Shown: piece by piece, positions 6,223 through 59,434 of the stretch
Position numbering within the stretch: position 1 is the first letter of the stretch
How the letters are laid out: the number at the start of each line of letters is the position of its first letter
NCBI RefSeq assembly: GCF_964275005.1
Contig: NC_092690.1
Location: 10,606,010-10,670,009 of the forward strand
Source: Diadema setosum
Lineage: Eukaryota; Echinodermata; Echinoidea; Diadematoida; Diadematidae
Length of the DNA: 64,000 nt
Direction of reading: 5' to 3'
Translations under genes and position numbers: made by a program
Notes under the pieces: generated by a model
Told to the model about the DNA's origin: nothing
The model's input: the letters and a program-made list of their open reading frames with translations, nothing else
The model's database searches: none

Positions 6223-7008
6223 ATATGGCCTTTTTTACGATCAGTGGTGTAACTTTTGTACTCAGAGGGTCAAAATTTCAAACAAAATATTTTTTCATTA
6301 TTCTGTTTGATTCCTGTTGGAAAGTATTCAAATTTTTGAAAAAATAACATTTCAGACCTTAAAGCTGAAGACTTATTGGTGTAATTTAAGGAAAACCCTG
6401 GCACCTGGAGTAAATTTAAGCAAAATTTTGTTTTCATGAATTGCACCATAATGACAAAACTCTGTAGTCAAACTTCACCATGCAAAGTTTATATGGTTAA
6501 CAACAATATATAGTTTGTAAATCAAAACTATTTGGGGGTTGAATATTAAGTGAATTAAAAAAAAATACATGAGATTTATAAATTTTTGGTAAAAATACCA
6601 ATTGACATGCAATTTTTAAGATTTTAACTATTTAATGGAGGGCAAGCCAGGTCAAACTCTATACTATAACAAGTCTTTAAGAAGGGCTACCTTCCTATGT
6701 AGGTTAAATGAAATTCCAATCATTTCTTTAAATCTTGGATTTTTCACACATGGATGTTTCGGAGGTGACAGTTAACATAATAGAATGTTTCGGAGGTGAC
6801 ATTAATATTAACACTCAGTTTTTTTGAGAATAAGTGACAATAACACAAAACTTCTTCTTTTTATCAATGTTTTTAATAATTATAACTCGAGAACAAGAAA
6901 TTAACTCCTGTCTCAAGCAGATAAACCACACAGAACAAGTGTTTTTTTTACACTTCATGGCACCGGTAGTTTGCCTTCCATTTGGACGAAGGTTGTAAGC
7001 TAAATATT

Positions 7009-7400
7009 GTAATCTGAAGAAACGTGGCCTTCCATTTTCTACCTTAAATTGAGATGAGGGTGTGAGATCATTTTAGTAATGTTTCTTTGCTCTCAGAACA
7101 TTTTATTCCACAACACCAGGGAAGAATCACTTCGTTTCGGAGGTGACACTCAATGTTAACATTGTGTTGAAATATTCATTTACAGTAAGAATATGACGGA
7201 CATATTTAAAGCTAGATATTGTAATCTGATGAAACATGGCATTCCATTTTCTACCTTAAATTGAAATGAGTGTGTAAGATCATTTAGTAATGTTTCTTTG
7301 CTCTCAGAACATTTTTTTCCACAACACCAGGGAAGAATAACTTTGTTTCGGAGGTGACATTCAATGTTAACATTGTGTTCAAGTATTCATACAGTATGTC
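7009..7400. repeat. about 210-bp tandem duplication
   Basis: The block beginning near 7009 recurs near 7219 with about 90% identity. Both units include CTCAGAACATTTT, ACAACACCAGGGAAGAAT and one copy of the GTTTCGGAGGTGACA motif followed by AATGTTAACATTGTGTT. Confidence 0.85.
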
Positions 7401-8579
7401 CCCCCCCCCCCCCCCCCAAGGGAAAAAAATTACAATTAGACTTTTGCATTGATAGCACCCAATATGATTAAATCAGCTAAAATCTACTTTGGGGTCTTAA
7501 ATTATAACATCTTAGCTCTATTTTGCAGAAAGCCCCAGTCAATTTGGTTCAGTGGTCTCAAAGAAATGTGGATTGTTATAAAGGATGTCAGGAGTCTGAT
7601 TCTTCCAAGTTTAGCACTTGGATGCTCTTGGAACTGCATATTAATGTGTAAACACAATATACAGAACTTGGAGGGAAGGGATTCCTGACATGCTCTACAA
7701 AAATCCTCATTTGTCTTTGACCTCTGAAGCAAATTGAATGGGGTTTTCTGTAAGGTATGGGCAATGAGTTATAGTTTCAATCCCTCAAATTGTATTTTAG
7801 ATTGATTCACTATCTTTAAAGTTATCGTTGCGGAGGGTACCATTGTAATTTTTTGGTGGGGACATAGGTTATGAATGCCAAAAGCAAAAATTCTTATTTG
7901 ACTTGTATTATGTTTTTGTTTGCACATAATATTGTAAATAGATTAATTCAAGGATGTTCATGAATTCTTCATCATTCTTGATAGCCACCATACAGATGTT
8001 ATAATACTGGTGAAAGGTGTTTGGTTCATCTGAGATAAATTTTCTATATACCAGATTCATTTAAACTGTTGACATTACTAGAATATATTTTATGTATCTT
8101 TCTGAATAGCTTGAAAATTACCAGCAAATAATATATATTAGTCACTTTCGAGAGTAAAAAGTATAAGATAAGAAAAAATCATTTTATTGTTTTGGAGGTG
8201 ACACAACACAGAGACAACCCAACTTCTCAGGTGTTAACTAATACAATTGTGAACATTCATGTCTTTCCTCATGGCTTTAAATTTCAAATATAAGCTCTTT
8301 CTTTCAGTTCTTACTTGTTATTTTGTTTAGTTATTCTCTTTCATGATAGTGTATACCAGCTCATATTTTGTTTTGGATTGTAATTCATACTAATCTTTAG
8401 CAAGTTTTTACAGTTTGGTTAAGACAACAGTTTGTGTTTCCCAGCTGAAGAGAGCAGCATAATGCTTTTGTGTGAACTCACGGGGAAATTTTTTTTTAGT
8501 TCAGTAATTTTACCCATCAACTTCACAGAAGGTCCCGGACACAAACTGGTCTCAAATAAACCTATAAGGGACCAAAAAA

Positions 8580-9139
8580 AGGACAAGTTCACCTCAATAG
8601 ACACGAGGGTTGGGTAAATACAGCAATATTAGTAAAACACATCAGTGAGAGTTTGAGGAAAATAAGGCAATCCGTTCCAGAGTTATGAATTTTTGAAGTT
8701 TCTGCTCAATCAAAGCTGAATGAGAAGACTTCTATAGCTTGTGATGTCATATCTGTACAAGGATATAGAGAAAGTATCAAGAAAATTCAACATATTTTCA
8801 CTTTTCTTGCATAACAAAAGAACACTTGACTTCTCTCTTTTGGAAGGCAGGGTGAATAATATTGCCCTAACATACACCAGTAGCAAGTTGAAGAAATGTG
8901 CACTTTTTTCAAAAAGTAAAGTTTTGTGAAATTCACTTATATTTTCTTTATATCGTTGTATGCATGTGACATCATACATTGTTGTAGTCGTCTCATCCAG
9001 CAGTGATTGCATAGATATTAAAAAAAAAAACAAACATAACTTTTGAATGGATTGTCCAATTTCCCAAACTTTCAATGATGTGTTCTACTAATGTTGTTGC
9101 ATTCACTCAATCCACATATATGAAGGTGGACTTGTCCTT
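8580..9139. mobile_element. foldback MITE, family A, copy 1
   Basis: The ends are GGACAAGTTCACC and GGTGGACTTGTCC, with long imperfect inverted arms (AACACATCAGTGAGAGTTTG on the left; its complement near the right end) around a diverged centre. Other copies lie at 47463-48288, 52437-52999, 60018-60583 and, in part, 35663-35800. The TTAA duplication seen in other copies is lost here. It is nested in the 4.9 kb element and so is younger than it. Confidence 0.85.
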
Positions 9140-11095
9140 CAAGAAACCATGTTCTTTTCCTTGAAATTCCAGTACTTAAAGCCAAATTCTAAGATAAAAC
9201 ATAATAACAAAACAAGGTAAACACGTCATCAAAATTATATTGAGATAGAACTACAAATCTTGTTTTTGGATCTTTCCCTTTCCAGTCCTGGGGACTTGTT
9301 CCTCTGTTCACTTTAGTTGTCAGATAACTTCAATAATCTTGAAAAATACAATGTCATAAACAGCTGGTTCAACTTGGAAAATGTAATAATTATTGTCATA
9401 TTTAAAAAAGAAATCACATAATTTTGTTTATGATTACCACGTTGTACATGGAAAAACAACAACTAAGAATTCAAGAACAAGTTGTGCACCAGCTATAGGC
9501 ATGTGGACTTTTTGTGGAGTTTGATTATTTTATGATTTTTTTAAGATTGTGGACTAGGGCATGCATGAACTGCCACATGTATCACTTTGGTATCAAGGGA
9601 ATTCTGGTGAGCTAGGTATACAAAAGTCACTTCTATTGTGATGATTTTGTAGATATTAAATGTATTTGAAAATGTTAATAGATAGTGAAAAGGAACTGAA
9701 GTCTTGCCTTTCACTATCACATAACAATATGGTGTTAACAAACAATGTCACCTCCGAAACACAAGAAAAAGCAACCTACATGGAAAGCTGTGATTGGTAA
9801 ATCTTCACAACTAAATTGCTTAAATTGGAAATCAAGCTTCTAAGATGAAAGCATCTATATGTTTACTTAATTAAAGCAGGAGAATTGATCTTGATTACAA
9901 TATTATATATACAACAGATGGGTGTATTTTGTGCATTCTCTTTGTTAAAAAAGTGAATAAATGTAAATTTGCCCTAAAACGTACAGTATAGTAATAAAAA
10001 TAAGAGTGAGAGTGTGTTAGTTGATTTCTCCACTTTGAGACTTATGTTACTAAAATAAATGAAACCATTGGTGTACATGATATGGTTTCTCTTCAATAGA
10101 AATGAGCAAAAACTCTTGTTAACAGTGTTTTGTCACCTCCGAAACAGTAATTCTTAGTTTTTATTAGATCTTTTATTAATCTCTAGAAAATTCTCACTTC
10201 CTGTTGCCATATTACTATTTTCATCCAAAAGAGATTCCTGTCAATTGGACAGAATCAAACAAAATTGCTTTGTCTTCGAGAAATTATCAAATATAATACA
10301 CTTGTTGTTTCGGAGGTGACGATTGTTTCGGAGGTGACAAGTGTTAACGGAAAATTGTAAATTGCTCCGAAATGAAAACAACAGGCTATATTTCTACTAC
10401 CTTCCTTCAGAGATAATGTGAGGGGATATGTTACATTTTTGTAAATGTAATGTATAACTGATGTCAAGAATAAAAAAATCAAATACATAAATCTGTTGTC
10501 TCGGAGGTGACAGAAAAGTTAACGGAAAAGTTGCATAAATTTATAAACACTCACCAAAAAATGATAAGCTATTTGAATCAAATAATCTTTGGATCGAAGT
10601 TAAGTCAGATTGATTACTATTCTGTTTTGATGGAAATTAGCAAAGTTGAATTTTATAATTGTGAGCAAGAGCTAACTCAAAAGAGGGGTTAATTGTTAAC
10701 GGAAAATGTCACCTCCGAAACATAAAGTTTGGACAATTTCAGTCTTTAAAGAAGACAAAGCAGAACCTGGTAAACATAATAGTTCTTAAGTTTGGATACC
10801 TGCCTATCACCACAACAACAAAAATAATGACAAGGAATAAACAATTTAATATGCTAGGTCTGACAAAAAAACCATGTCAGAGTGCATACACCAAAAGTGT
10901 TGGATTTCAAGCATGTAAGTGCATGCCACATCTGAAAGAAAAAGAGACGAAAGTTCATTAAGGTACCCAAGGTAGACACTGTGGGTGGTAAGTTTATGAG
11001 AAAAAATAATGCATATCTGTCAGTGTATAAGAAAGTTATACATCAATTAGTGCCAAAACCGTGTTTTACACCACTGATTGTAAAAATGGCCATAT

Positions 11096-11442
11096 GCGAT
11101 TTCTAATAGTATTGACACAGTAGTTTCATATGATCATGCATTATAAAATTAAAAGACCCGCCCTTTAAACCATCTGTTTCCAGCTTCTTCACATCATAAT
11201 GTCTAATGAGATGAGTGGTCTCAACACAACAACTTCATATCCATATATCTCTGCACTAACTTGTTCTTCACCATTAATGCAAGGTGAATGTTTTTTAGTG
11301 TTGATATAAATTTACACTGTGCAGGTAAATGTACATTCTCTAACGTTACTAAATACTATGAAATAAACAGCCAACATTTTCTGTTGTCCTCGTTTTTTTA
11401 GCACCAAGCAAGAGGATTAACCACCTCAAACTCATCAGTATA
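11096..11442. other. spacer between two large elements
   Basis: I see no gene or repeat in these 347 bp. It is probably host DNA separating the GTTTCGGAGGTGACA and GTAACTGACGTTAC elements. Confidence 0.4.
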
Positions 11443-14256
11443 GGGGCAATTCCACGGTAACTGACGTTACGCGTAAGGATTTTCATGAAATTGTTTATGT
11501 TGTAGTTTTGTGAATGAAAGCACCCGGGGCTTGTAATTAGCATTGATGAATGAGTTCATGAGAATGAAGAAATAGGTGGAAAGTTTTTCTCTCAAACTGC
11601 ATTCCTTATCACATAGCAAGTGAAAATGTGTCGGTAACTGACGTTACGGAAAAAGGACATGGGAAATTATGGTGTAGATTTAAATGGAAATATCTCATGT
11701 CCCTGACTTCTAAACTCCATGTGTTTTATATGGCAATATACCTAGGTTCTTAGGAACAGTTGTGCAAAATAATGTGCACTTCAGATATTTCCTTTTAGCA
11801 CCATGCCAATTTCAGTGAAGGCATGATGGTAACTGACGTTACGTAACTGACGTTATGCTTACATTTGCCATAGGGTTTACACATGGAAAATCATGATAAG
11901 GAATAGTTTTGTGATATTTTATAATTCTGACCTTTCAGAGTGATTTCTTTGATATGGAATCATACCTTGGTTCATCAATTACAAATACCCAAATGAAATG
12001 AAACATTAGTCCATTTTATTTGTGTATAATGAAAACTTAAAGGGAAACATGTCAGTAACTGACGTTACGTAACTGACGTTACACATACTTTTGCTATGGG
12101 GTTTACAAAGAACTAATTTATTTAACAGGTTATACTGCTGCAGTATACCAGTAACAATCCCAGGCATTTACTTAGCAACAAATTAAAACAAAATTTAAAG
12201 ACACAAATGGGATGGGGTCCTTAGGGGGCAAGCTCCCCCCCCCCCCCCCCCATGCCATAGCACAGTTGAGCAAAAATAATGTAATGCACCAGAGGATATT
12301 TCTTGACATTTGTCTTAAGATTGAATGCTTATTCAACAGTTATGAGTACACAGAGCCACTTAGATTCAGCGGTTCCAAGTATGAATATTGACATAACTAA
12401 GGTTTTTTTGTTGTTGTTGTTTTTTTTTTTTTTTTAATGAACAGGAAAGTTTCTATCTAGAGTACCCCACCCATAATGCCCTGCAGTACTACACAAAACA
12501 CAGATATTTTTGTGTGTGAAAAAAAAAATATCTTTCAGGTCATGGGGAAAAAACACATACAAATAAAAATATTCATAGGGCCTATATATGTATGAAATCT
12601 ACTGTGATATATTCTTTCTTCTTTTCTTCATTTTACTCCTTCTCCCTCAAGGCATTGTTAGGGCCATAAATAAAAAAAATGGTCTCCATTATCAATAATG
12701 ATTTAAATGAATAGTGTTACACTTCTAATATTTTTTCTGTGAAGAAGAATCATGCTATTTTGGTCAAAAGGGCATTATTTGTTTATTCCTTGCTTGAAGG
12801 AATGTAATTGTTTTTCTTTTCCTTTTCACTGGTATATCAAGGCTTGCAAATACATCCCAGATACCAAGAAATAGAACTTTGCAACGAAAGAATTCTAAGA
12901 TCACTATAAATGAATCTTCCTGTTCATAATTATCATGTATTACAAAAATGTCCCTGCATGAATGAAATAAAGTAATCAACAAATATGAAAAGTTTTTTTT
13001 TATTTTACCCTAGAATCACCTCTCACTTTGAGCAACATCAGTGTTAAACGTTGAGCAACATCAGTGTTAGTTTCAAACAGTAATGACAGTACATGCCTTA
13101 TGTCAGGCCTGCTTATGTACCATTTCAAGATGTTCCATAATAACTAAACCACACATTTAAGTGCAAGCGAAGAAATATATCTGTTCCTGCATTTGCCTTT
13201 AGGTAGAAACTTCACCAAGCTTCCAGAAAAAAAGAAAAATGCTAGCAAAAGTAGTCATTAGTTAAGATTATGAAACTGTTGGTATACAGCTGTACACAAG
13301 CTTTTTAATAGAAAAAGGTGGTTACCATGCAACCACGTCATTGATTAGGCCTGCAAATTTGGTAGCTTTATCATCCCGTAGGACTGTGAATGTACTGTAT
13401 AGTAATTTGAGTGCATTATATATTGCATGTGGTAAACCTAAACTTCCAGATGATTTAACCTTAAACTTGTGTTGAACAGAAAATCAAAGGCTCAACCCCC
13501 CCACCAAAAAAAAAAGAAAAGATAAATAAATAAATAAGATAAAATGAACAACAACAAAAATGTATCCATGGACATACAGTGTACCATGGTGATGACATCA
13601 TTCCCTATCAAAGTTCCCAGATGTATTGAAATGGCCTAAAGTAAAAACATTTGCCTAAGTTATAATTACTGACATGGTAACTGACGTTACATACTGGTAT
13701 ATGACGTTTCGGTAACTGACGTTACACATTTTGATGTGTTCATTTGACTCTCCAGTATGCCAAGTATCCTTATTTTCTGGGATTGAAAGGAAGGCATATG
13801 GGCATACATTAGAAATCCTAAGTTACATCATACAGCTCACTTTCTTTGATGAATAAAGTTAAAAATTCCTTGTTTTTGGTAACTGACGTTACATCCATCA
13901 TTGTCAAACTAATTAAAAGTTTTCATAAAATTCTTTAAAGCAACCAGCTTTTTCTTTCTATCATGTGGTAAAAGACTCGTCTGGTAACTACATACATGAA
14001 AAGATTGTTGTTTAGAGTACGAGTAAAGTGGATATACAGAGGGTAAATTATGTGACAATACACTCTTTCTTACCATTGAGTTATAGGCATATTTTAGCAG
14101 CCATTTTGAAAATCAAAATGGCCGCTTTTATTGAAAAACATAATGATTCTTAAAACTTCAACGCAAGTGTTGTCTGAAAATGTATGGTGTTTGACACAAA
14201 TATCATTTTGAATTTTCGGCATCTGTGTCCTACATACCGGGCCGTGGAATTGCCCA
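11443..14256. mobile_element. 2.8 kb non-autonomous DNA element with GTAACTGACGTTAC array
   Basis: The left end reads GGGGCAATTCCACGG and the right end (14242-14256) reads CCGTGGAATTGCCCA, matching in inverted orientation at 14 of 15 bases. TA dinucleotides flank both ends (11441-11442, 14257-14258), consistent with a TA target duplication. The first copy of GTAACTGACGTTAC overlaps the inner edge of the left terminal repeat, and all copies in the window lie inside. The interior is AT-rich, non-coding and includes a C-run at 12234-12251. TA targeting suggests a mariner-type or similar transposase; this is inference. Confidence 0.75.
11457..13892. repeat. about ten copies of GTAACTGACGTTAC
   Basis: Copies start at 11457, 11634, 11829, 11843 (last base T), 12055, 12069, 13677, 13697 (three changes), 13712 and 13879. 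Two pairs (11829/11843 and 12055/12069) are abutting 14-bp tandems. The motif is an imperfect palindrome, GTAAC-TGAC-GTTAC, and contains TGACGT, the ATF/CREB half-site. All asymmetric centres point the same way. Confidence 0.9.
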
Positions 14257-16252
14257 TAGACAGAGGACAATTCGAAGTGCATTTTGCTTTGGATGAGCCA
14301 GAAAAAAAGTTGCTGTTCTTGAAATGAAGACCAGACTTGTAACCTTCTAGAAAATCTTCACTCATTACTTGTAAAGTTGTAAAAATGTGCAATTCGAATG
14401 TGCAACTGCATGCCATGCATGCATCCTGCGCAGTGTGTAGCAGGGTTGTTATACAGTACACGCGTGGGGACGTGTAGCCCCGGAGACTGCGCCGGTAGTG
14501 TGGCGGCTGTCGCAGGTGTTAGGGGACGTGGTGACACTGACAGCTACAGCACAGCCACAGGCAAATTGCAGGCACGACACACGACTTGAGATTGGAGAAA
14601 TAAAGGATCTTAGCCGAGCAGAAACAAACCTAACAAAATCATAATTATTGACCATTTACTCACTTCAAACTTGTATAAACCGATGCTTGTTTTATAAGCC
14701 AATTAGACTGTAGAACTGTCAGAATGCAGAATAAGTTTCAGTACTCGACGTCACAGTACGGAATATGATCAACCCTCCCGATTTTACACGGCCGGGCGCC
14801 CGCCGCCGCGCCGCTAGTGTATAGCGCTGGCTAGCTGGTGACGGTGAAACGCAAATGGCGCCCGCCCTCTAGCGTTCAGCGGGGATAATCGAACCTGGGT
14901 CGGCAGCTGCACTGAAATCGATCTACGTTAGTACAGTGGTCAGAAGACTTCGATGGCATGGCTTGTGTCAACCTAAAATTTTTAAATTATATGCCTTTTC
15001 AGCGCTCTTACTTTCAAATTATCACTTCTTTATGTGAATGAAAGTGTACATTTTTGGAGTGAAAACTAGTCAAAGAATCCACTGTTATATCATATTTTCT
15101 CTAAAGCGTGAGGGTACTTTTTCTCCTCAAGAAAATGGCAAGAATTTTTGTCAACTTCACAATATGTTCGCTGAAATGTTATTTTGCAGTAATGCTATAA
15201 CCTCTCTTGAAAATTATGCTACAATTCTTGTAAGGCTTATCATATTTTGATTTTAAGCAATTGAAAAAAGGTTTGAACTAACAAAAAAAAAAATGATTTT
15301 TTTTTTTGTACGGGTACCTCTTGTAGGTTAAAATTTCAAATTAAGTTTCACAGACACAATACACGTTCACTCTTTTTTGCCATTTACTTTAAAAGAAAAA
15401 TATTTATATCTAGGAACAAAATAAACAGACCTTTAGCAGCTAATAGTATCACAGTGAATTTATTTAACTCCCTTTGAGCAGCATTTGAGCAATTTCATTT
15501 AAATTTTGGCACATGTGACAGCTATGAAATATATTGTGTAGTTGTGCAAATTTCATTTTCCCCATATTTTTTTCTCCATGTCTCCATTCCTTAATGAAAA
15601 TCATTGTTTATTCCAATACCTTACTCGGGTTATGAGCACTTGAATTGAGATAATACATGGCACACGTGACTACATGCTGTATTAGTGAGCAGAGTGTACA
15701 TTTTGTTCAATGTTGAGCGGCAAATTGCCATGGTATTCTTTTTTTTTTTTTCTCCAATAGAAAACATGCAGATGATTATTACTGGTTGAGCTGTCTCCAT
15801 GGGTGTTGGGTAGGGGTGTTACTCACGTTGAGAGATAGTTTTAGTTATCTATGAATTTATTATTTTTCTCTCTATCTTTCGCTCTTTCTCTCTCTCTCTC
15901 TCTCTCTCGCAGTTCTGTTTTGTTATCTGTCCAAATATAATGAAGTTAAAATGAAATGTTGCAAGGGAATATAGTTTACATGGAAATTTCAAATTCATAC
16001 ATTGTTCACTAACTGTATATGCATTTTTACACACAGTATAGGTTTTGATGTCGGTAGTCATTTAAGAGCTGACATACATATATGCAATGTATCATATTTT
16101 TTTTCTTAGTTTTTTATTTAGAAAATGACCTCTGATATCTGAATGGAATAAGAAAGATTGGTAGGTTCACATATCTCAAATTGACACTTACAAAGAAACA
16201 GTTGTTTTGTTTTTGTTTTTTTATGTATGCCTGTTAATAAAATTTGTATTTT
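14257..16252. other. CpG-rich patch and non-coding flank
   Basis: 14430-14930 is clearly richer in G+C and CpG than the rest, including a run of GGCGCCCGCCGCC-like sequence near 14800, a CGACGTCA (CRE-like) at 14746-14753 and GGCGCC boxes. It could be a promoter or CpG island, but I find no convincing first exon on either strand. The remainder is AT-rich with a CT microsatellite near 15880-15908. Confidence 0.35.
15880..15908. repeat. (CT)n microsatellite
   Basis: A run of TC/CT units interrupted once, followed by cgcag. Confidence 0.85.
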
Positions 16253-16427: not shown

Positions 16428-16430
16428 ATA

Positions 16431-16474: not shown

Positions 16475-16476
<2 letters not shown>

Positions 16477-16571
16477 GCTTATCATCATGACTATTACTTA
16501 CGTTTCTGTGAAATTTCTCAAGATATAATTTCAATCAGAGAATTTTATCTGCTCTTTATTTATTTATTCAT

Positions 16572-20517: not shown

Positions 20518-22250
20518 CATTCACTCTCCTACTACCTTGACTACCTAGGGCCTGCACTACTACGACGTACAAAGGGGTGTAGGTAGTCGGAGACGCGCGT
20601 TTAGACGTACCGTTAGTGCACCAGTTTTCGACAGGACCCAGATTTCGACACTCAGCAGATAATTCTTATTAAATTTTAGGGTAACATCCCCAGTATTCGG
20701 TCACTTAAGCTTTTTTGCAATATTTTTCAAACTAAAATAATACATACAGACATCATATCTACAGCAATGTATGTGAAATATATCAAATTTCTTTAATCTC
20801 AACTTTCATTTCGTTAAATATCTCACAGAATTGCACAAAATCGCGAAATATTTCACCTTGAAAATTCCCCAGTATACGGTCATCGGCTCCAGTATTCGGT
20901 CACGCGATGTGCGCGTTCAAAGTCAATGCGTGTTCAAGGCAGCTTGAAAAACGCGCACGCGCGCTACCTTGTTGGCGCAGAATTGCATCGGGGACGTTGC
21001 GGCGACCGTTGGTGACCGAATACTGGGTCCTCGGCACTTGCATTCAACCCTTGTACATTGGGACACTGTATCGGCACGTACGGACATTTTGTTTTTCTTT
21101 TGCGTTTTTGAGGATACCATTACACTCCAAGCTTGCGATAGGCGAAAAATCCCGCGAGAGAACGGCGTATTTCTCGATTTTTAGCGCTTTTTCGGCGACC
21201 CATACTCTTATAACTGGGCCTTATCCGCGCGCGCTTTTGGAAAGTAGCGCCGATTCTGCACTTTTGACGGTAAAATTTGGGATTTTGGATGGATTTTTGG
21301 AGGGGGCCAAGGGAGTTTCCTATTGTGAATGAGTGTGGAAGTATGTGAATTAATGTGATTTGCGTGTGTTGTGACAGTTGAACTTACTGGCTGGTGACTA
21401 GTGATAAGTGACCGAATACCGGGGGCTGACCGAATACTGGTGCCCTTACCCTATACTCAATAAATTTTACATGATACAAACGTCTGACTTCAACAATCAA
21501 CCAAGTTATCAATCACATTTCTAGTCTTATATAAACACCGTTTGTCACTTGTCATCATAATCCGACAGTAGAATATTTAGGAGAAAAGCAACACAGTGTC
21601 AGCAGAAATTTTGATGTCGGCCATTTTCAGGGGTTCAAACAATATGATGCATTTTGTATACATCGCCGTAAAATGAAATTCACCCATGCCGGATATCTTA
21701 CTTTAGTATCAGTTTGTTTGCCAAATCCTGATGTTAGAATTCATAATTGTCTTTAGTAATTTCATGGCTGAATTCGTGATAAATGAGCAAACTTGTAGAA
21801 AGAGTTGGCTTTGAGAATGTGGCACCAGATTTTGGCATTCCCATAATAAGACACGTTATTTATAGAGGAAACAACAAGTTCTTGCGCTGGTACTTTGCTG
21901 GTTTGCGTCCACAATGCAGTGTACGCATACTGTACGCGCCATGTGATTTAGGCCTATGTGTGATGCGCGCTGTGATTGTGTCGAAAAATGATGCTGGGTG
22001 TCGAAATCTGATGCCAGCGACGGCGTGACGGAAATCGCTAAAATGGAACACGAGTGCATTCAAACTGGAATTCGTTCAAGGCATATTATAATTGGCCTTT
22101 GTAGCTCAACTTCACATCGAAATTCCGAGGTAAAACGGTGCAGTATTGATGGTAAACAAGGAAATGTGCTAAAGTGTCGAAAACCGGTACCCTTACCACT
22201 GCTTACTGTACGTCTCCGACTACCTACGTTGTAGTATAGGAGAGTGAATG
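20518..22250. mobile_element. 1.7 kb DNA element with TTTCGACA motifs, carrying a nested element
   Basis: CATTCACTCTCCTA at 20518-20531 matches the inverse of 22237-22250 exactly, and GTAGGTAGTCGGAGACG (20579-20595) matches the inverse of sequence near 22211-22227. TTTCGACA-type motifs occur as two forward copies on the left (20625, 20642) and three reverse copies on the right (21979, 21999, 22184), in contexts such as CCCAGATTTCGACAC. A second element with its own ends (20679-21451) sits inside. No transposase frame was found. Confidence 0.65.
20679..21451. mobile_element. 0.8 kb DNA element with CCAGTATTCGGTCAC array
   Basis: The left end GGGTAACATCCCCAGTATTC continues GGTCAC; the right end, reversed, reads GGGTAAGGGCACCAGTATTC then GGTCAG. 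TA lies outside both ends (20677-20678, 21452-21453). Six motif copies: forward at 20690, 20869 (ATACGG variant) and 20889; reverse at 21012, 21408 (ACCGG variant) and 21426. The arrays are therefore inverted toward the two ends. The interior is unusually CpG-rich for the window and has frames up to 141 codons, with no recognisable protein. Confidence 0.75.
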
Positions 22251-23924: not shown

Positions 23925-36402
<12,478 letters not shown>

Positions 36403-39292: not shown

Positions 39293-39816
39293 CTACAACT
39301 AGTAATGCAGCCGACTTGGCCATTGGCAAATCATGCTCGTTGAAGCAAACGCTCACTGATAATGTTCAACTCCTATTGAGATTCCTTGACTATACATAAG
39401 TGTATGTGTATTTACATTATAGATCAGTGAAAAAGCTATACACAATAAAATTCGTAACGGGGAATCTCAACTATATCTGTTTTGAGGCAGCCTTCCAACT
39501 GCCTCAAACACATTCCTGGTCTTTAGTTGATGAATTGTAAGGCTTATCCCGATAGTGTTACCATTTTGTAGACACAAAACAGGGTGTGTAATTGATTAAA
39601 GACAAATCATTGCTTGCCAAGCTTGACCTTTAACCTATGAACCCTCTTACAACCTTCAGCTTCTGCCTTGAATGAGAGTAAGTTAAGCACTGTACACATT
39701 CTGTTATACTGTACTCACAACACACACACACATACACACACACACACACACACACATGTACAGTTGTACATGTGACAATTAAACAGAACTCCTGTCTTCC
39801 ACCTACAGTATAATTA
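39293..39816. repeat. non-coding stretch with (CA)n near 39718-39757
   Basis: A CA microsatellite of about 17 units lies in otherwise unremarkable AT-rich sequence. Confidence 0.6.
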
Positions 39817-40065
39817 TACTGTATACTCCAAATATTTTGCGAGGTTTTTATTTTCGTGATCTCGCGAGACAGGTGCCATTCACATCTTTAAAGACACCTG
39901 AAAATATTGACTCTGATCCGAACATAAATGTGATGTGCATGCTTACATTTCTCTCTTCATTACTGGACTCCACAATCATGAATCTAACCACTTGCAAAAT
40001 TGTTGGTAAGTCCAAATTCGTGAAAAATCAGACTCTGCTATTAAAATATATGGTGCATTCAGTAT
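39817..40065. mobile_element. MITE, TACTGTATAC/CGCGAA family, copy 3
   Basis: It starts TACTGTATACTCCAAATATT and ends TGGTGCATTCAGTA. Many CGCGAA sites have decayed to CGTGA, TGCAAA and similar. It is an older copy, closest to the one at 32655. Confidence 0.75.
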
Positions 40066-43617: not shown

Positions 43618-44292
43618 TAGATGTCTAACGGTTAACATGGGACTAGTAGAATAGATAACTAACGTTAAGTCATGAGCCTCGACCCATTACGAGAAGTCAC
43701 AAAGTTGTCATCGGCAATGGCAGGTCAGTCGTTCAGCTTAATAACATTTTAAGGGTTTTTTTTTTGTTGTTGTTTATACAAGTTTCAGTCTAACCCGTAA
43801 TAATTTTAAGATTTTGTTTGTATTAACATTTTGTTTGTATTAACAAGTTAGGCCTAAATTGTAACTGTTAGGCCCAACGTTAGATGCTACTCAGGATTTC
43901 TCAACCTCAGAGACGTGGAGACAGAGGCAACCAGGCTTTAACGTTAAAGAGGGTTCTAACACGTTAATTGTGAAACAGTGGATGTGGCAAGACCATGCAC
44001 ACAAAAGCAGACACCAAGAAAAAAATCAAATTCTAACCCAATGTTCAAAAAGTTTGTCAGTTTCTATGGAGAGTGGAACTCCCTGATCACAATCTATGTA
44101 GGCCTAGACTTGGGCCATTAGGACCTACGTGTCGTACTCGTAGATCCTCTTCCAAGTGAAATTTACATTCTGCAATACAGTTAACGTTAACATGAAACAT
44201 GTCATAGACATAAATTAATGTATTCTAACGTTAGAGTCAACGTGATGTCAACCGTTAAGTTAGTGTTAACCGTTAGTAACGTTAGACATCTA
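43618..44292. mobile_element. 0.7 kb DNA element with AACGTTA motifs
   Basis: TAGATGTCTAACGGTTAACA on the left matches the inverse of TGTTAACCGTTAG...AACGTTAGACATCTA on the right apart from a 9-bp insert. Six AACGTTA copies occur inside (near 43661, 43875, 43940, 44182, 44227, 44278) and one just outside at 43607; by chance fewer than one would be expected. No coding frame. Its right end is about 45 bp from the processing element of the H2A.X gene. Confidence 0.5.
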
Positions 44293-44437: not shown

Positions 44438-44851
44438 TCAGTACTCCTGGCTCTGGCTGCTCTTTCCACCAGCTTTCTTTGCAGCAGCGGTCTTCTTGGG
44501 CAGGAGCACGGCCTGGATGTTTGGCAGCACACCACCCTGGGCGATGGTCACTCCGCTGAGAAGCTTGTTCAACTCCTCGTCGTTGCGGACAGCGAGCTGA
44601 AGGTGACGGGGGATGATCCTCGTCTTCTTGTTGTCACGGGCAGCATTCCCAGCCAACTCGAGAATTTCAGCGGCAAGGTATTCAAGCACAGCGGCTAGGT
44701 AGACGGGGGCACCTGCACCAACACGCTGGGCATAGTTTCCCTTGCGAAGGAAGCGGTGAACACGACCGACGGGGAACTGCAGGCCAGCTCGCATGGAACG
44801 GCTCTTGGCTTTGGCCTTGGCTTTGCCGCCTTTTCCGCCACGTCCAGACAT
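44438..44851 (-). CDS. H2AX: histone H2A.X
   Basis: An intronless frame of 137 residues from ATG at 44851, [20 protein letters not shown], through the histone fold ([20 protein letters not shown], then [17 protein letters not shown]) to the tail KSSQSQEY. The SQEY terminus, with Ser134, is the H2A.X signature phosphorylated by ATM/ATR at DNA breaks. An in-frame GTG/ATG further upstream would add 16 residues, but MSGRGK-type starts are universal, so I chose 44851. The gene stands alone rather than in a histone cluster, with its own TATA box and a replication-type stem-loop, which implies S-phase or maternal expression rather than a polyadenylated replacement transcript. Intact. Confidence 0.97.
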
Positions 44852-44932
44852 AGTGATGTGATTTGAGTAGGCGTGTGAAACACAAACGAGGATACACAAG
44901 TTGTGACTAAAGCCGAAATGCTTTCGTCGAGG

Positions 44933-44940
44933 TATTTATA
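44933..44940 (-). promoter_or_regulatory. TATA box of H2A.X
   Basis: TATAAATA on the minus strand, 82 bp before the start codon, giving a predicted mRNA start near 44905-44910 and a short leader. Confidence 0.8.
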
Positions 44941-52436: not shown

Positions 52437-52999
52437 AGGACAAGTTTACCTTCATAGACATGTGGGTTTTGTGAATGTAGCAATATTGGCAGAACACATC
52501 AGTGAGGGTTTGAGGAAAATCTGACAATCCGTTCAAAAGTTATGCATTTTTTAAGTTTTTGCTCAGTCACGACTGGATGAGAAGACTACATGTACTATAG
52601 CTTGTGATGTCACATGTGTACATTATAAAGAAAGCATAAAGAAAATTCAACATATTTTTACTTTTCTCGCGTAACAAAAGAACACTCGACTTCTCTCTTT
52701 CAGAAGGCAAGGGGAATAATATTACCCTTAACATACATCAGTAGCAAGTCAGAGAAATGTGCACTTTATTCAAAAAGTTAAGTTTTGTGAAATTCTCTTT
52801 TTATTTTCCCTATATCATTGTACGCATGTGACATCATACACGGCGCAGTATAGTCTTCTCATCCAGCAGTGACTGCGCAGATACTTAAAAAATTCATAAC
52901 TTTTGAACGGATTGTCTGATTTTCCCCAAGGTTTCCCTGATGTGTTCTACATTGCTGCATTCAAAAAAACCCACATGTCTATGAAGGTGAACTTGTCCT
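52437..52999. mobile_element. foldback MITE, family A, full copy
   Basis: AGGACAAGTTTACCTTCATA to AGGTGAACTTGTCCT, flanked by TTAA at 52433-52436 and 53000-53003. 563 bp. Long imperfect inverted arms and a central GTGCACTTTATTCAAAAAGT region shared with the copies at 8580 and 60018 (the latter in the other orientation). Confidence 0.9.
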
Positions 53000-53124
53000 T
53001 TAAGTAATGTGGACACTTGCAGGGACACCACAGGCAGTTCTAATGACTGTCCACTATATAATAGAATTAGTATCAAGTCATGAATTTGCTGTAAAATGGT
53101 AAGGGATTACAAAATCCTTATGAA

Positions 53125-53374
53125 TACTGTAAAACCAAGGAGGTACTAGGCGCCTAGTACCTCCTTGGTAAAACGAGGAATGTTCACGTGCATTTTAATT
53201 TTGCGAATTTCGCGAGCGCGAAGATTCGCGAAATTAAGATGCACGTGAAATCTCTTGTCTACACTATAAAGATTGAATGCCAGTGGCAGCTCGCAAAAAT
53301 TTCATGCCGCAAAAAAGGCCATCGGCTCCAATTCGCGAAAAATTCATGCCGCGAATATACCGTGTTTTACAGTA
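53125..53374. mobile_element. MITE, TACTGTA/CGCGAA family, copy 4
   Basis: TACTGTAAAAC on the left and GTTTTACAGTA on the right. The interior is dense in TTCGCGAA, TTCGCGAGCGCG and CCGCGAA. A 34-bp perfect palindrome interrupts its left end (53135-53168). Confidence 0.85.
53135..53168. repeat. 34-bp perfect palindrome, insertion-like
   Basis: CCAAGGAGGTACTAGGC is followed directly by its exact reverse complement with no spacer. TAAAA occurs on both sides (53130-53134, 53169-53173), as a 5-bp target duplication would. The palindrome is absent from the other three copies of the host MITE. Confidence 0.85.
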
Positions 53375-53840
53375 TTCAAATGAGTGAGTTGATGATGTCA
53401 TACCCTCACAATTTTTGATATGAGGTATATAAAGTCAGAAAAGAATATTATTTTTGGCCAGTTATACAAGTAATACAAGTATGTTCCCATACTAAGATAT
53501 ATCAGAGTTTATATAACACACAGTGTATTATCTTCTTTTTCATTTTGGGTGGTTTTAAGACAAGTTTACAGCTAAAATATGAGATTTTTGTCATTTCTGT
53601 ATGAAATGAATAAAAGATGTGAGAGCATGACATCGTCAACTTGCTCATCTGAATATTCATAAGGACTGATCAAGAAGTGATTTCCTATATTACATGTGAA
53701 ATTTGAAATGTCATATCTTCTTTATTTCTGCTCTGATTGTTGTCATTTTTGTATTATTCTGAAGGTAATATTTTTCTCTTTCTTCTGAAGTTCATCATTT
53801 GTTGGGTGGATTTCCTCTTTAAAGGCATACTTTGCTACTG
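53375..53840. other. non-coding stretch
   Basis: AT-rich sequence with no gene, repeat or structure that I can support. Confidence 0.4.
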
Positions 53841-54629
53841 AGGTTGTTTTCACACATACTGAGAGTGCATAATTTGAAACAGTTTGTAATGACGCATCAC
53901 GAGAATCATGATTTAAATAATGGCTTTTCGCCATGGCACACATTATATGTACATGCAAACTGGAATTGTGGAGGGTGATTTGAATCGTAATTCCAATTGT
54001 GATTTAAATGATGGTCCGGAGGTGTTTCAGAAGTACAATAGGAAGCAGTCGTGTGCATGGATTGACCTCCAAATCGTGTTTTTGGGGTGGAGCTTATAAA
54101 TGGTGACCTTTCAACTGTTTCTGCAGAATAACTTCCAGGGAATAATTTTCTATGCAACAATTTGCTATGCATTTTTACACCATTGCAACACAAGCTATTT
54201 GTATGAAACTTTTGTGTAGCAGTTTTCTTCCATAGAAGTGTACAGGATACCATTTGAAATATTGTTCATCTGCTGATATTGCTAATCAAATTTGAGTCGG
54301 AAAATTATTCCCTGACTTCACTCCTCAAATGCTAGTTCTGCAGTCAATGTACACACTACCTACTGCGTAACCCGTTGAGGACAGTTTAATTTTGCTACAA
54401 CATGCATTTCCTATAGATACCATCCCAAGTATACTCGGGACTCGTCCTCAGTGGGTTAAGAGTGATAGATGGAGACTCAGAAAGAAGCCACACCTCTTCT
54501 CCTTGCCCTGAAATTAAAAGCCACAGAATTCGCAAAACCTTCCTAGGTCGTGTGCACAAACGATACTTTGAATCGTATTTTGTAATTCAGCATTGCAGTA
54601 ACGCTTCTAGACTGGTGTGAAAACAGCCT
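53841..54629. mobile_element. 0.8 kb element with AGGCTGTTTTCACAC ends
   Basis: AGGTTGTTTTCACAC on the left is inverse to GTGTGAAAACAGCCT on the right (14 of 15). The inner right side reads, reversed, ATGCTGAATTACAAA, and the same block occurs in the fragment at 62527-62650. A 91-bp MITE (54368-54458) lies inside. Confidence 0.6.
54368..54458. mobile_element. 91-bp MITE, TAACCC/GGGTTA family, copy 2
   Basis: TAACCCGTTGAGGAC to GTCCTCAGTGGGTTAA, a clear inverted pair around GCATTTCC. Same family as 33873-33965. Confidence 0.75.
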
Positions 54630-54834
54630 TAGTTTTGTGCGCTCATAAAACAGGAAATCATGAGTGATGATGGATCCTTCCACATTTTTTTACATGTATT
54701 ACAGCCCTGTAGTCATCATAGTACTTGTTATGAAATGCTACGTACGTGTGATCCGAAGTCATGTTGGCGTGTTTCCTCATCCAGTGGTGACTCTTGGAGA
54801 ATATCAGCCTGACTGAGCTGATATCTCTACTTAA

Positions 54835-55219
54835 AGGTCCAGTTTACCTTTGGGAGCAGTGATTTTAAAAATGTTCAAGATATCACATTTGATGCATATG
54901 TGTAGGTCTGTTGTATCACAAAACATCCTACCATATAAAATTTTTGCAATAAAGCCTAAAATATAAGGAAATATCAGTATTTTTCTCAATAAACCGTAAC
55001 TGTAGACGGTTTATTCTGGAAGCATTTTTATTATAACTATTGTTCACATTTTGTGTATTTAACAATACTTTACATCGATTATACGGATTCAAATTCTACA
55101 TCGATTATACGGATTCAAATTTTTACAGTGGTTGTTTCTATCCCTAACTCACATTTTAGAACTATTTTAAAGCACTAATGCTGGGGTTTTGTTTCATCTG
55201 CAAATTGTAAATTATGCCT
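54835..55219. mobile_element. MITE, family D, TTAA target
   Basis: The left end AGGTCCAGTTTACC and the right end, reversed AGGCATAATTTAC, are flanked by TTAA (54831-54834, 55220-55223). A 26-bp unit, TACATCGATTATACGGATTC plus AAATT, is tandemly doubled near 55072-55122. Confidence 0.6.
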
Positions 55220-56160
55220 TTAACCCACTGCATGCCACATCAATTTTGTATCCCTACATGTACACACACATACAATGTACGGTGTGTAATACAGCTGTAT
55301 ATTAAATGTATGAAATATGAGCATGTTTGACTCATTGGCGCAGAAGGTGTGAAAGCACTCTGAGCACTGTTTACATTTTACAAACCAACAACCAAATATG
55401 AGCATGATGCTTGTTGTACATTCCCCATACCGGTAGTACACAAGTGTTGATGTGACGCCTACACTCATGCATTGTACGGTACATGCCACCACGTGTGATC
55501 ATGTATTACAGCATCAGACACTGTGACTGTTAATTGATGAGGCCAGGTGATTGATAGGGTGTATCTAAAAGTCATTTCAAAGAAGATTCGGTGGTCTGTG
55601 ATGAGTATGGATGGTGCGCTCTTCAGCATCTGTACCGACGACCCATTGAAAATTTATGATTAGATGAAGATTGAAGATTGTCTTCATCAAATCCGACGCC
55701 TGTTTTGTTGTCTGGCCTTTGCCAGTCTATTTCAAATATGATGATTGTTTTTAACACATACTGTATCATTGAGGAGTTCCCCCCCCCAAGGATATCAAAT
55801 ATTTAAATTAAATATTTTGCTACCGGTGTTTCTGTTCTCCCCCTCCACCCCTCGCCCCCCCCCCCCTTTAAGGTGCTCTACATGAAATAGCCAACAATAG
55901 ATGGGGGGGGGGGGGGTACTGTCTTTTCCATTACAATTGATTAAAAACAGTCGGTCAAAGTTACAAATTAGTCTCACTTCAAGTCTTGTATTCTATTTCT
56001 AATAGTTTGCTGACATTCAGACTTTTCCATCATAGAGCTATTTCCAACTACAGCCTGACATTCTCATGTTTTACAAAAGTAGGATTGCTTTTCTGTTGGA
56101 TGTAGGCCAATTTCTGGAACCGAAGTTACAAGATATTGACAACTTCTTGAATATTTTATT
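55220..56160. other. non-coding stretch with C- and G-runs
   Basis: C-runs near 55780 and 55855 and a run of 13 G near 55903. No gene supported. Confidence 0.4.
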
Positions 56161-56941
56161 GTCCCCGCCGAACGAGTTCGAGCAGGGGACTATGAAACGG
56201 GCTCCGTACGTGTGTGTGTCCGTGTGTCCGTCCGTGTGTCCGTCCGTCCGTCCGTCCGTGTGTCCGTGTGTGCGTCCGTGTGTGATCAAAATGTTCAAAA
56301 TGCTACTCCTTCGCCATTTCTAACCCGATTTTGATTCTGTTTGCTTTATATGATAGCACTACATGGGAGCTTTGAAACTTCTATACAGAATTTCAGTTGT
56401 GACCTTTGACCTTGACCTTTGACCTATATTGTACATTTTGCTTCAAAATGCTACTCCTTCGCCATTTCTAACCCGATTTTGATTCCGTTTGCCTTATATG
56501 ATGGCACTAGGTGAGGGCTTCAAAACTTCTACACAGAATTTTGACCTTTGACTTCTTTGACCTTTGACCTTGATTTTTGACCTATATTGTACATTGCCTA
56601 CAAAATGCTACTCCTTCGCCATTTGTAACCCGATTTTGATTCCGTTTGCTTTATGTGATGGCACTAGGTGAGGGCTTCAAAACTTCTACACAGAATTTTG
56701 ACCTTTGACTTCTTTGACCTTTGACCTTGATTTTTTTATCTATATTGTACATTGGCTACAAAATGCTACTCCTTCACCATTTCTAACCCGATTTCGATTC
56801 CGTTTGCTTTATGTGATGGCACTAGGTGAGGGCTTCAAAACTTCTACATAGAATTTTGACCTTTGACCTCTTTGACCTTTGACCTTCATCTTTTTACCTA
56901 TATTGTACATTTTGCTACTGAATGCTACTTCCGGCGGGGAC
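56161..56941. mobile_element. DNA element with GTCCCCGCCG ends and internal minisatellite
   Basis: GTCCCCGCCG (56161-56170) and its exact inverse CGGCGGGGAC (56932-56941) bound the element. After a CCGTCCGTCCGTCCG-rich start come four units of about 158 bp beginning near 56301, 56449, 56606 and 56764, each with TGCTACTCCTTC, CATTT.TAACCCGATTT and several TGACCTTTGACC blocks. I recall this as a repeat found in several marine invertebrates. No coding capacity. Confidence 0.85.
56400..56425. promoter_or_regulatory. two abutting DR1 nuclear-receptor sites
   Basis: TGACCTTTGACCT at 56400-56412 is followed directly by another at 56413-56425. Each is the reverse of AGGTCAAAGGTCA, the DR1 consensus bound by HNF4, RXR and COUP-TF. 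More copies recur in each minisatellite unit. Binding is inferred. Confidence 0.5.
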
Positions 56942-57222
56942 ATATATTACGCACCGCGTAATTTCTACTTTTCCTTGTTAATATTGTCATTTCTTGGGGG
57001 GGGGGGGGGTGGCAGGGAAGAAAGGTGTAGACGAATTTTCTTTCAGCTTGTGGTCAGTGACGTCCTGTCCACTGTGCTACCGTCTAGCAGGTGCTGGGTG
57101 ATCGAGGTATCTAACTTGATGTTCGTCCAAAGAGCAATTGGCAGTGTATTCTGGGAAGTGACGGACCAGTGTTTCCTGTGCTCATCCTGTGGTGTTATCA
57201 TAAAACCTAATAACTCTTTATT
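56942..57222. other. spacer between two elements
   Basis: Contains a run of 13 G near 56997 and a moderately GC-rich stretch without a recognised feature. Confidence 0.4.
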
Positions 57223-57999
57223 GGGCAAGTCCAAGATAAGGTCCCCTCAGAAGGCAAAATTTCATCTTTGCTCAATATTGACATGTTTGGTATCATTTTG
57301 AAGCTTATGAGTTGAAGTTCTGATTTCCATGGAGGAAAAAATGATATTATGTAAATTTATGCAAATTTCAAGGGCTTCATTTCAATACACTAAGTATGTA
57401 AAGTACAGCGTTACGGACGTATGCTGGGACATTTATAAAAATTCATATTAATTCAAAGGAAAGCAAGTGATATTTGATTATTTGGACATAAGAAATTCAT
57501 CAAATAGTTTAACTTAGTATGAAAATTTTGGGATTATGCAAATGATCATGCAAATTAGCTTATGTCCTATCATGACATGTCACATACGTAACAAATTGAG
57601 GTCATTTTTTAAGGTTTTTTCTGAAATTGCTAAAGTTATTTGAGTGCCCTTCTAGGAAGTTCTAATTTATTTTTTAAAGAATTTAAATACCATAGAAAGA
57701 AGAAAAGATAGTAAAAGAAATATTTTTTATTAGGCAATTAAATAATGTTACATAAACTGGGACAAATGTGTTACGTATTGGACATCCTCATACATATTTC
57801 ATGTGAATGCATCCATTAGCTAGCTGGGAAGGTCTCTCAGTACATAAATGGTCAATCATCCTGCAGAAAGCATCCCAACTTTGCAGCTACATAAACTTAT
57901 GAGTTAATATAGATGCTTGAAACTATACATGTACAGATGTACTTGACAACAATTTTCAGAAAGGGGAGGGGGAGATGGCAAAATACACAATGAGTTATA

Positions 58000-58335
58000 G
58001 TTTTCGTAGAAATGGGGATTCAGTTTTCAACATTTTACAAGATGATTAGAAACCACTTACATGAATTATTAAAGAGCATACAATTCTAAGAGGAATTTAA
58101 AGTTTATTTGATGAAGATCCAATATAAAATGGCTGAAATAAAAAAAAACAAAGTAAATAAAGTGGTCCTAATAAAAAATGGGACCCACCTTTTATTAGGA
58201 CACCAGGTTTGTGGATATCTCGGTCATTTCAAAATGGAGTTTTGTCATGTTAACTTTGAATTCCTCTTAGAATTGTATGCTCTTTAATATTTCATAATTT
58301 TTCTATTGCAAGTGATTATAAATGAATTGTCCTTA
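58000..58335. mobile_element. foldback MITE, family B, diverged copy
   Basis: Shares TTATTTGATGAAGATC, AAATGGCTGAAAT and GGGACCCACCTTTTATTAGG with the copy at 50452-50866, and its right arm carries GAATTCCTCTTAGAATTGTA. The ends are decayed. It lies inside the 2.2 kb element. Confidence 0.7.
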
Positions 58336-58614
58336 TTCAGTTTTTAGTAGTTAGCCATGGTAAAAATTATGGGTATACATACATGTACAGAGGTGTGACT
58401 CGAATCAATGACCTGATTGCTAGACAGACATCATATCTACAATACTCGATTACTGGGGTTCCAAGCAGCAGGTATTGCATATTTATTGAAATTAAATTTA
58501 TTTCTTGTGTCAAGTTGTTTTTTGTCGAAACTGAATGGCAAACTGCCCTTCATCAGTGGAAATAAACACTTTACCATTCAATTTTTTTAGTAGTAACTAT
58601 CCTGATAAAAATAC

Positions 58615-59033
58615 AGGGCATGCATGCTCAGGTTGGTTTTCAATGAAAATATAAAATATGATTAAATATGATTATAATGGTAAATTAATTGGGGAAATGT
58701 TGTTGCTTTGACAATCTGAATCAGTATTTGAGTAATTTCAAATGATTTTATTTCAATATACGTAATTACATTGTGTGCAAAATACCCATAAACATGGTTC
58801 TCCACACACTAAACGAATGCGGGACAAAGGGCATGCATACTCAGGTTGGTCATGAAAAATATAAAAAATATGATTAAATATGATTATGATGGTGAATATT
58901 TGGGGAATGTTGTTCCTTTGACAATCTTGATCAGTATTTGAGTAATTTCAATTGATTTTACTTCAATAATTATGCAAAATACCCATAAACAATAAACATG
59001 GTTCTCCACACACTAAATTAAAGCGGGACAAAG
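58615..59033. repeat. about 210-bp tandem duplication
   Basis: Two units beginning near 58615 and 58830 share GCATGCAT.CTCAGGTTGGT, ATATGATTAAATATGATTAT, TCAGTATTTGAGTAATTTCA and GGTTCTCCACACACTAAA. Confidence 0.85.
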
Positions 59034-59434
59034 TGTCCCATACGTAACATGTCATGTCTGTCTTTAATTAGAACCTGTAAATAGAGCTTTTTACCTCATG
59101 ACGTGGAACTTACCTCTGATAATCTTGAGTGTTGTGAGTTTCATCACACTGAGTTACAAGTTGTAGAATGAAATACTTTCAGAGAGTTTTGAGATTGAAA
59201 AAATGTTCAACAAAACAAAATTTTTCTGGTCCCATACGTAATGGCACATATTTTCTCTTCTAGAATATAATTGTCAAGGTAATTTTTCTCCATTTTTTAC
59301 ATGATTATTCTTCTTCTAGATATCAATCACCATGATAAAGTTCAATATGATCAAAGGCCATTAACACTATTTTTCAGGTCAAAAAAGTCTCTGAATGTCC
59401 CATACGTAATGCACATGTTATCTTGGACTTGCCC

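Follow-up and report, generated by a model that had tools for sequence, protein, structure and literature searches.

Several cut-and-paste transposons carry transposase-binding sites within their ends. According to the excerpts of the three sources drawn on here, the hAT element Hermes has short subterminal repeats, AAG(T/C), with five copies within 55 bp of each terminus; the transposase binds them through its BED domains, several protomers are involved, the phasing of repeat to tip matters, and the target is 8 bp (PMC10368747). Sleeping Beauty has an outer and an inner transposase site in each of its ~220-bp ends, all four sites are required, and the DNA-bending protein HMGB1 aids assembly (PMC7827188). 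Sola2 elements combine short inverted ends with AT-rich 4-bp target-site duplications (AWWT; ATAT, AAAT, ATTT) (PMC3627910). This study concerns a 64,000-nucleotide stretch of the genome of Diadema setosum (NC_092690.1, positions 10,606,010 to 10,670,009; hereafter the window), in which an earlier note had described six elements (E1 to E6) built on one plan, with terminal inverted repeats and internal copies of a short CpG-containing motif found nowhere else in the window. Five of them (E1, E2, E3, E4 and E6) were found to belong to repeat families in which the motif sites stand at nearly fixed distances from the ends, while the word at these sites differs between families sharing nearly the same tip.

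Repeat families and their boundaries

The window (G000:C6:10606010-10670009) was compared with the whole genome (912.7 Mb in 102 contigs); feature positions are given in Table 1. All 15 loci fetched for E1 aligned to the window copy, with main alignments 92-99% identical; within a few bases, the left end was common to 12 and the right end to 13 of the 15, two of the shortfalls being loci that were cut short. A 4-bp duplication was detected by script in 9/11 two-ended copies and, after a one-base shift by eye, in the other two; it was ATAT in six of the 11 copies (one after such a shift) and another 4-bp word in the rest. Besides, locus L023 contains a paralogous empty site of the E1 insertion in the window. 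A perfect 4-bp duplication was present in 27 of 39 candidate pairs of GGGCA(A/T)(T/G)TCC tips, which were drawn from loci L009-L076 and the window; the duplications of E2 and E6 were AT-rich and varied. Inspection by eye showed TA on both sides of E3 copies in 16/19 rows (20 loci were taken; L073 gave no row, and the row of L074 spans a tandem array). Four of the six elements, E1, E2, E3 and E6, are mobile families that duplicate their target site, and E4 is a repeat family too.

E4 had been placed at 20518-22250. A genome search with its right part gave 293 candidates, and among the 40 of these that were scored, which include E4 itself, 34 of the 39 others stopped exactly at 22196 and none reached the queried right end. 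Since the two ends of E4 align with each other as CGTTAGTGCACCAGTTTTCGACA and GGTAAGGGTACCGGTTTTCGACA, its bounds were set at about 20611-22197. The original bounds were thus ruled out; their inverted repeat is that of a small palindrome around E4, which seems to have received E4, and E3 is nested in E4. E5 matched only itself in the genome search, its steps are irregular, and its word AACGTTA occurs in equal numbers within and beyond the element (6/12 window sites lie in E5); it was dropped from the class. About 150 bp from the E5 end lies a histone H2A open frame (44441-44935, minus strand; Pfam H2A C-terminus, E 1e-20).

The proposed bounds were supported in E1 (by its copies), E2 and E6 (by 4-bp duplications) and E3 (by TA); those of E4 were rejected, and E5 was not confirmed as a family. 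The common plan holds for five elements after this correction.

Private words and their concerted change

The six proposed motifs were tallied on both strands of the window. The E1 motif GTTTCGGAGGTGACA had eight exact and three one-mismatch copies, every one within 6756-10721, and its sole further match at up to three mismatches was at 57578 (three mismatches). The E2 motif GTAACTGACGTTAC had eight exact copies and one with one mismatch, and the E3 motif six copies at up to two mismatches, none of them outside the respective element. The E6 motif CATACGTAA occurred exactly four times, only within E6, and with one mismatch at eight places outside; the E4 motif TTTCGACA had one copy outside E4, at 58523. 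The claim that each motif is private to its element was, therefore, borne out for E1, E2, E3 and the exact E6 word, failed for E5, and had one exception in E4. All six words do contain CG, in a window that is CpG-poor (observed/expected 0.57). Scattered 12-mers (at least four copies in 6 kb) numbered 32 in the window, where they overlap one another and stem in part from ordinary tandem repeats, and none appeared in any of 20 dinucleotide shuffles; motif repetition therefore exceeds chance. Genome-wide, exact matches were counted with the reversed word as the control. These amounted to 823 vs 0 for the E1 motif, 1022 vs 19 for the E2 motif, 684 vs 3 for the E3 motif, 326 vs 0 for the E6 tip, 101 vs 0 for the right tip of E1 and 786 vs 2 for the tip GGGCAATTCCRYGG.

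The family tips considered were GGGCAATTCC.., GGGCAAGTCC.., GGCCATTTTTAC.. and GGTAAGGG... Families with the GGGCAATTCC tip carry GGTAACTGACGTTAC, GGTAACTCGCGTTAC, GGTAACTCACGTTAC, GGTTAGTAACGTTAC, GGTAACGGAATTAC or GGTAACGGAAGGAC, the words starting at 12, about 190 and 377-410; the one F14 tip seen reads GGGCATTTCC. When 20 tips were sampled blind to the word, leaving out E2 copies previously included, 12 had an array by script: four of TCGC, seven of GGTTAGTAAC (one partial) and one of GGAAGGAC. By eye, three of the other eight (L082, L087, L089) resembled decayed arrays, one (L096) the opposite end of the TCGC family, three (L091, L092, L094) belong to one further family, and the remaining tip (L095) was given no family. 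The general pattern GTAACNNNCGTTAC had 2566 genomic matches vs 982 for its reversal. Among the places listed with their letters, 12 clusters had at least three sites, and 10 of these were uniform by eye (TGA, TCG or TCA).

Two pairs of families illustrate the change. The spacers of E6 and E6b are 66% alike over 571 bp, and their first two sites agree within 1 bp and the third sites lie 7 bp apart; their words differ by a single base, and the base after an exact CATACGTAA was C in 81, T in eight and G in none of 89 cases in E6, and G in 36/36 in E6b. E6 and E6b are, on this evidence, an intermediate stage of word change. E3 and E4 share the tip GGTAAGGGYACCRGT and carry the words TATTCGGTCA and TTTTCGACA at matching positions, and no similarity between the two was found beyond the ends (best E 0.013). 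Concerted word change recurs in this second element group. The proposal that the motif diversifies between families is strongly supported by the uniform clusters, the E6/E6b base, the 20-tip sample and the E3/E4 pair.

Fixed spacing of the motif sites

Measured from the end, motif centres lie at 17-30 and then at 194-199 bp, and in the group with 4-bp duplications a third follows at 385-397 bp. The distances were 20, 197, 392/406 and 618/632 bp in E2; 20, 199 and 387/402 bp in F39 (nested in L039); 19, 199 and 397/417 bp in F38 (L038); 20, 198, 385 and about 400 bp in F40 (L040); and 30, 198 and 392 bp at the right end of E6. The opposite end has a second layout: 370 and 537/572 bp in E2, 367 and 532/549/569 bp in F39, 366 and 520/536 bp in F38, and 186, 352 and 526/546 bp in the E6 copy L042. 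E3 (17, 196/216 and 17/35 bp) and E4 (19, 195/215 and 19/36 bp) are laid out alike. The E1 array starts further in, with single steps of 176, 173, 209 and 211 bp, near-double steps of 347 and 385 bp and long gaps of 844 and 1557 bp.

Arrays met after the spacing had been noticed gave steps of 179, 187 and 15 bp (L014), 165, 17 and 20 bp (L011), 178, 187 and 15 bp (L074) and 179, 196 and 14 bp (L093); the steps of F14 and F39, listed at the same stage, agree within 1 bp. For seven families, the start positions of the second motif were 189, 191, 191, 190, 192, 191 and 193. Single steps fell within 160-215 bp in 13/17 cases in the six window elements and in 15/16 cases elsewhere; since this interval was set once E1, E2, E6 and the earliest of the nested families had been viewed, and thus on part of the data, its two binomial values are not independent tests. 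Helical phasing of the steps was weighed, and we make no claim for it.

The first spacers measure 156-166 bp, and their similarity against shuffles stayed at |z| of at most 2.6 in 21/21 family pairs. The second spacers measure 172-184 bp, and a few pairs of them still resemble each other to some degree (best z 5.3, E2/F40). Within one element, the flanks of motif copies had mean similarities of 0.22-0.42, mostly near 0.3 (CpG-containing rows). Distinct indels per distinct substitution were fewer in the motif arrays than in the element middle, at 0.17 vs 0.66 in E2, 0.18 vs 0.33 in E1 and 0.36 vs 0.80 in E6, and at 0.15 vs 0.42 in E2 and 0.29 vs 0.68 in E6 when counted outside simple runs. These results demonstrated that the spacers resist indels. 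The fixed spacing, which the earlier note did not mention, is more unusual than the private CpG words.

Conservation of the motif sites

Variants were analysed in 14-20 copies per family, chosen by motif matches for E1, E2 and E3 and by the tip for E6; because E6 was not chosen by its motif, its result is free from picking bias. For E1, the search by tip gave 12 copies in the range that the motif list covers, and each of them was already part of the set used. L074 was left out of E3 in the mismatch counts and shift test, and L043, L052, L053, L055 and L056 out of E6 in the shift test and the indel comparison. Mismatches to the majority base at the motif, in 30-bp flanks and in the rest of the element were 18/2295 (0.8%), 135/7770 (1.7%) and 2.2% in E1; 21/1880 (1.1%), 157/4758 (3.3%) and 5.5% in E2; 30/1769 (1.7%), 142/4092 (3.5%) and 3.1% in E3; and 15/653 (2.3%), 147/4200 (3.5%) and 1447/29533 (4.9%) in E6. 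By Fisher tests, which treat related copies as independent, the motif differed significantly from its flanks in E1, E2 and E3, and from the rest in all four families (E1, p 3e-7; E2, 7e-23; E3, 7e-4; E6, 1e-3). CpG mismatches inside vs outside the motif were 2.0 vs 10.9% in E1, 3.8 vs 13.4% in E2, 3.8 vs 7.6% in E3 and 7.6 vs 18.8% in E6.

We also applied a circular-shift test, which retains the site spacing and the relatedness of copies. With all variants, shifts as low as the observed count numbered 0/4832 in E1, 0/2773 in E2, 23/731 in E3 and 51/2172 in E6; the values were 148/4832, 0/2773, 91/731 and 89/2172 with shared variants and 11/4832, 2/2773, 28/731 and 349/2172 with singletons. In the count tests the contrast was stronger for shared variants than for singletons in each of the four families; in the shift test this applied to E2 and E6 only. 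With 14-20 copies a singleton need not postdate insertion, and this split does not, therefore, yet separate selection during transposition from selection or protection that followed it. The comparison of motif and flanks that had been proposed thus came out in favour of the motif in E1, E2 and E3, and in E6 against the rest of the element (p 0.001), which supports the suggestion that the motifs are under selection.

Search for a transposase and an autonomous partner

Longer relatives with a transposase frame, which the earlier note had proposed to look for, were sought by inspecting by eye the 40 longest of the open frames present in 339 kb of the window and fetched loci. Neither a transposase nor an autonomous partner could be recognised among them, and none came to light for E3 and E4, to which no separate search was devoted. 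Five short open frames from the element families, among them frames within E1, within E3 (in the window and in L070) and within L055, had no Pfam match. Pairs of E6 tips 5.1-14.6 kb apart were considered as autonomous elements and rejected, there being no frame above 129 amino acids in L037-L039; nested elements explain much of their extra length. An open frame of 463 amino acids resembling long terminal repeat retroelements (by eye) lies between two E6 tips 14.6 kb apart in L040/L041. The loci L091, L092 and L094 share a near-identical end of 450 bp that has the GGGCAATTCCACGG tip, and their inner part is rich in CpG and possibly coding; they make a candidate autonomous partner. Their first 450 bp (tip GGGCAATTCCACGGTAAATGG) showed no repeated motif, and a 65-amino-acid open stretch had no Pfam match.

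Neighbouring repeats

A small palindromic element at 62859-63125 has ends 90% complementary over 42 bp and four exact AACCTCGAGGTT sites (62883, 62941, 63034 and 63090); its steps of 56-93 bp place it off the 180-bp ruler. CGCGAA-rich small repeats at 25150-25400, 32640-32880 and 53170-53370 are partly interrelated and partly akin to 34411-34602 and 39814-39995. At L074 (G000:C1:1999500-2005500), copies of E3 about 1 kb apart form a head-to-tail array with one F40 inside, a transposon turned tandem repeat.

Table 1. Elements, duplications and motif sites in the window (a minus after a position marks the reverse strand)
Feature	Position	Strand	Description and basis
E1, probable non-autonomous element	6227..11091		GGCC...GGCC ends, 4865 bp; ends common to copies, 4-bp duplications in copies, paralogous empty site
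E1 target-site duplication, left	6223..6226		ATAT; read from sequence
E1 target-site duplication, right	11092..11095		ATAT; read from sequence
E1 left motif array	6756..7359	+	GTTTCGGAGGTGACA at 6756, 6787, 7134, 7345
E1 right motif array	9746..10721		9746-, 10131-, 10307+ (1 mismatch), 10325+, 10498+ (1 mismatch), 10707-
E1 further motif site	8189	+	1 mismatch
E2	11444..14255		Tip GGGCAATTCCACGG; 4-bp duplication ATAG (11440-11443, 14256-14259)
E2 motif array, tip side	11457..12082	+	GTAACTGACGTTAC at 11457, 11634, 11829, 11843 (1 mismatch), 12055, 12069
E2 motif array, other side	13677..13892	+	GTAACTGACGTTAC at 13677, 13712, 13879
E3	20679..21451		GGGTAA...TTACCC ends, TA on both sides
E3 motif sites	20690, 20869 (2 mismatches), 20889, 21012-, 21408- (1 mismatch), 21426- (1 mismatch)		CCAGTATTCGGTCAC
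E4, sister of E3	20611..22197		Tip GGTAAGGGTACCGGT; interrupted by E3; right end from copies, left end from alignment of its own two ends only
E4 motif sites	20626, 20643, 21979-, 21999-, 22175-		TTTCGACA
Small palindrome, seemingly the recipient of E4	20518..20610 (left part), 22198-22250 (right part)		Right part outside the matches of 34/39 E4 copies
E5	43619..44291		AACGTTA sites and inverted ends, flanked by ATTT on either side; status as a repeat family not confirmed
E6	57223..59434		Tip GGGCAAGTCCAAGATAA, 4-bp duplication TATT
E6 motif sites	57581, 57771-, 59037, 59231, 59399		CCCATACGTAA, majority sequence of copies, at most 1 mismatch

Discussion

E1, E2, E3, E4 and E6 are probably non-autonomous cut-and-paste transposons whose arrays bind family-specific transposases. 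This reading brings together the inverted ends, duplications, copies, arrays, motif conservation and concerted word differences described above, and from it we infer that a transposase is the motif binder and that the step reflects a nucleosome. Each motif would be the binding site for the DNA-binding part of the transposase that moves the family, and several subunits would occupy the sites along each end and have to be kept at a fixed spacing, each step equalling roughly one nucleosome or one DNA loop, so that the short tip common to the families reaches the catalytic core. This tip, GGGCAATTCC.. or GGTAAGGG.., would be read by a conserved catalytic part and change little, while the word may be read by a faster-changing domain, families escaping cross-mobilisation through a change at every site. 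A protein of common architecture that varies from family to family would account for the whole pattern, which suggests a lock-and-key fit between a family and the enzyme that moves it.

Several observations weigh against this reading. No transposase was recognised in the frames inspected. The indel contrast in E1 is small outside simple runs (0.117 vs 0.156), the third and fourth sites of one of the 20 tips (L083) are 20 bp nearer, and single E2 copies vary in spacing (L035 has 192 and 189 in place of 195 and 177). The difference between motif and flank is non-significant in E6 taken alone (p 0.13), and the E2 and E3 copies were picked by motif, the comparison with the tip list having been made for E1 only. 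Singletons are also depleted at the motifs in E1, E2 and E3, while the shared variants reach only 148/4832 in E1 and 91/731 in E3; protection or host selection after insertion may also underlie the depleted singletons. Two sparse three-site GTAACNNNCGTTAC clusters were mixed, and that tally detects only words fitting the pattern.

The depleted singletons fit a reading in which a host chromatin or silencing factor (THAP, zinc finger or CENP-B-like) recognises the motifs, the spacing reflects nucleosomes arranged around this factor, and the elements either benefit from it or are under its control. The nucleosome-like steps (13/17 and 15/16 single steps in 160-215 bp) and the CpG in every motif are in line with such a factor, while a private word in each family, changing at all sites between sisters, is not expected from it, and E6 singletons are not clearly depleted (349/2172). 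We consider a host factor unlikely, the main ground for preferring a transposase to a THAP or zinc-finger factor being that every family has a word to itself. That the arrays are functionless remnants of tandem duplication or segment shuffling, with motifs exact only because the copies are young, seems very improbable: E1 does contain a tandem duplication with a period of 211 bp covering two motif sites, and its copies are young (92-99% identical), but in any one element the flanks of the motif copies show little similarity (0.22-0.42), the motif is conserved over the rest of the element, and the spacing is kept though the first spacers are unrelated.

The spacing itself could be inherited rather than constrained, sister families having diverged by substitution with their lengths kept by chance. 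Clear homology links E6 to E6b (66% over 571 bp) and the second spacers of E2 and F40 still align (z 5.3), as expected under inheritance; against it, the first spacers show no clear similarity in 21/21 pairs with lengths still within 156-166 bp, the element middles gather more indels per substitution than the arrays, and E3 and E4, with another tip, have a first step of equal size, at about 176-179 bp. Chance retention is accordingly regarded as rather improbable. A broader and tentative possibility, going beyond binding by family-specific transposases, is a chromatin ruler across unrelated transposons of this genome: a nucleosome-length step on which the word is replaced in concert as transposase specificity shifts, so that families speciate while keeping tip and ruler. 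If the main reading is right, at least six related families in one genome, with near-same tips and site positions and different words, would provide a legible record of transposase specificity change. It would open to test the joint change of a multi-site transposase and its scattered sites, and whether transposition complexes form on nucleosomes. It would also supply a sequence-only rule by which orphan non-autonomous elements could be found and classified: tip, word, about 164 bp, word, about 172-184 bp, doublet.

Comparison with known transposons

Subterminal transposase sites are already known. Concerted word change at nucleosome-scale steps, with largely unrelated spacers and in two groups, had no match in the open-licence literature searched: no description of these motifs or their spacing was found there by title and abstract (Repbase and Dfam entries were outside the scope), and six of the sequences, searched as text, gave only matches that were unrelated by title and abstract.

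The duplications set the families apart from some known groups. TTAA, the duplication of Kolobok and piggyBac, accounted for 1/27 of the tip-pair duplications, and the duplications are of 4 bp or TA, unlike the 8 bp of hAT elements. The 4-bp AT-rich duplications resemble those of Sola2, most closely in E1, where ATAT was found in 6/11 copies; those of E2 and E6 are AT-rich but varied and thus less restricted. Internal motif arrays are unmentioned for Sola2 in the available part of its description (PMC3627910), and no Sola2 transposase was recognised among the 40 frames inspected. Short repeats inside the ends are shared with hAT elements (Hermes; Ac, Tol2), the difference being that the present words of 8-15 bp stand mostly 165-200 bp apart, whereas the AAG(T/C) repeats of Hermes, in the excerpt available, lie within 55 bp. 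The inverted repeat/direct repeat (IR/DR) arrangement of Tc1/mariner elements such as Sleeping Beauty is comparable to E3, in which TA was recorded on both sides (16/19 rows), unlike in E1, E2 and E6. About 165 bp separate the two sites of Sleeping Beauty. Its ends hold two sites each, as far as the excerpt describes, whereas the present ends have up to six, with doublets 14-35 bp apart; they differ further from the IR/DR arrangement in their family-private words and in the 4-bp duplications of E1, E2 and E6.

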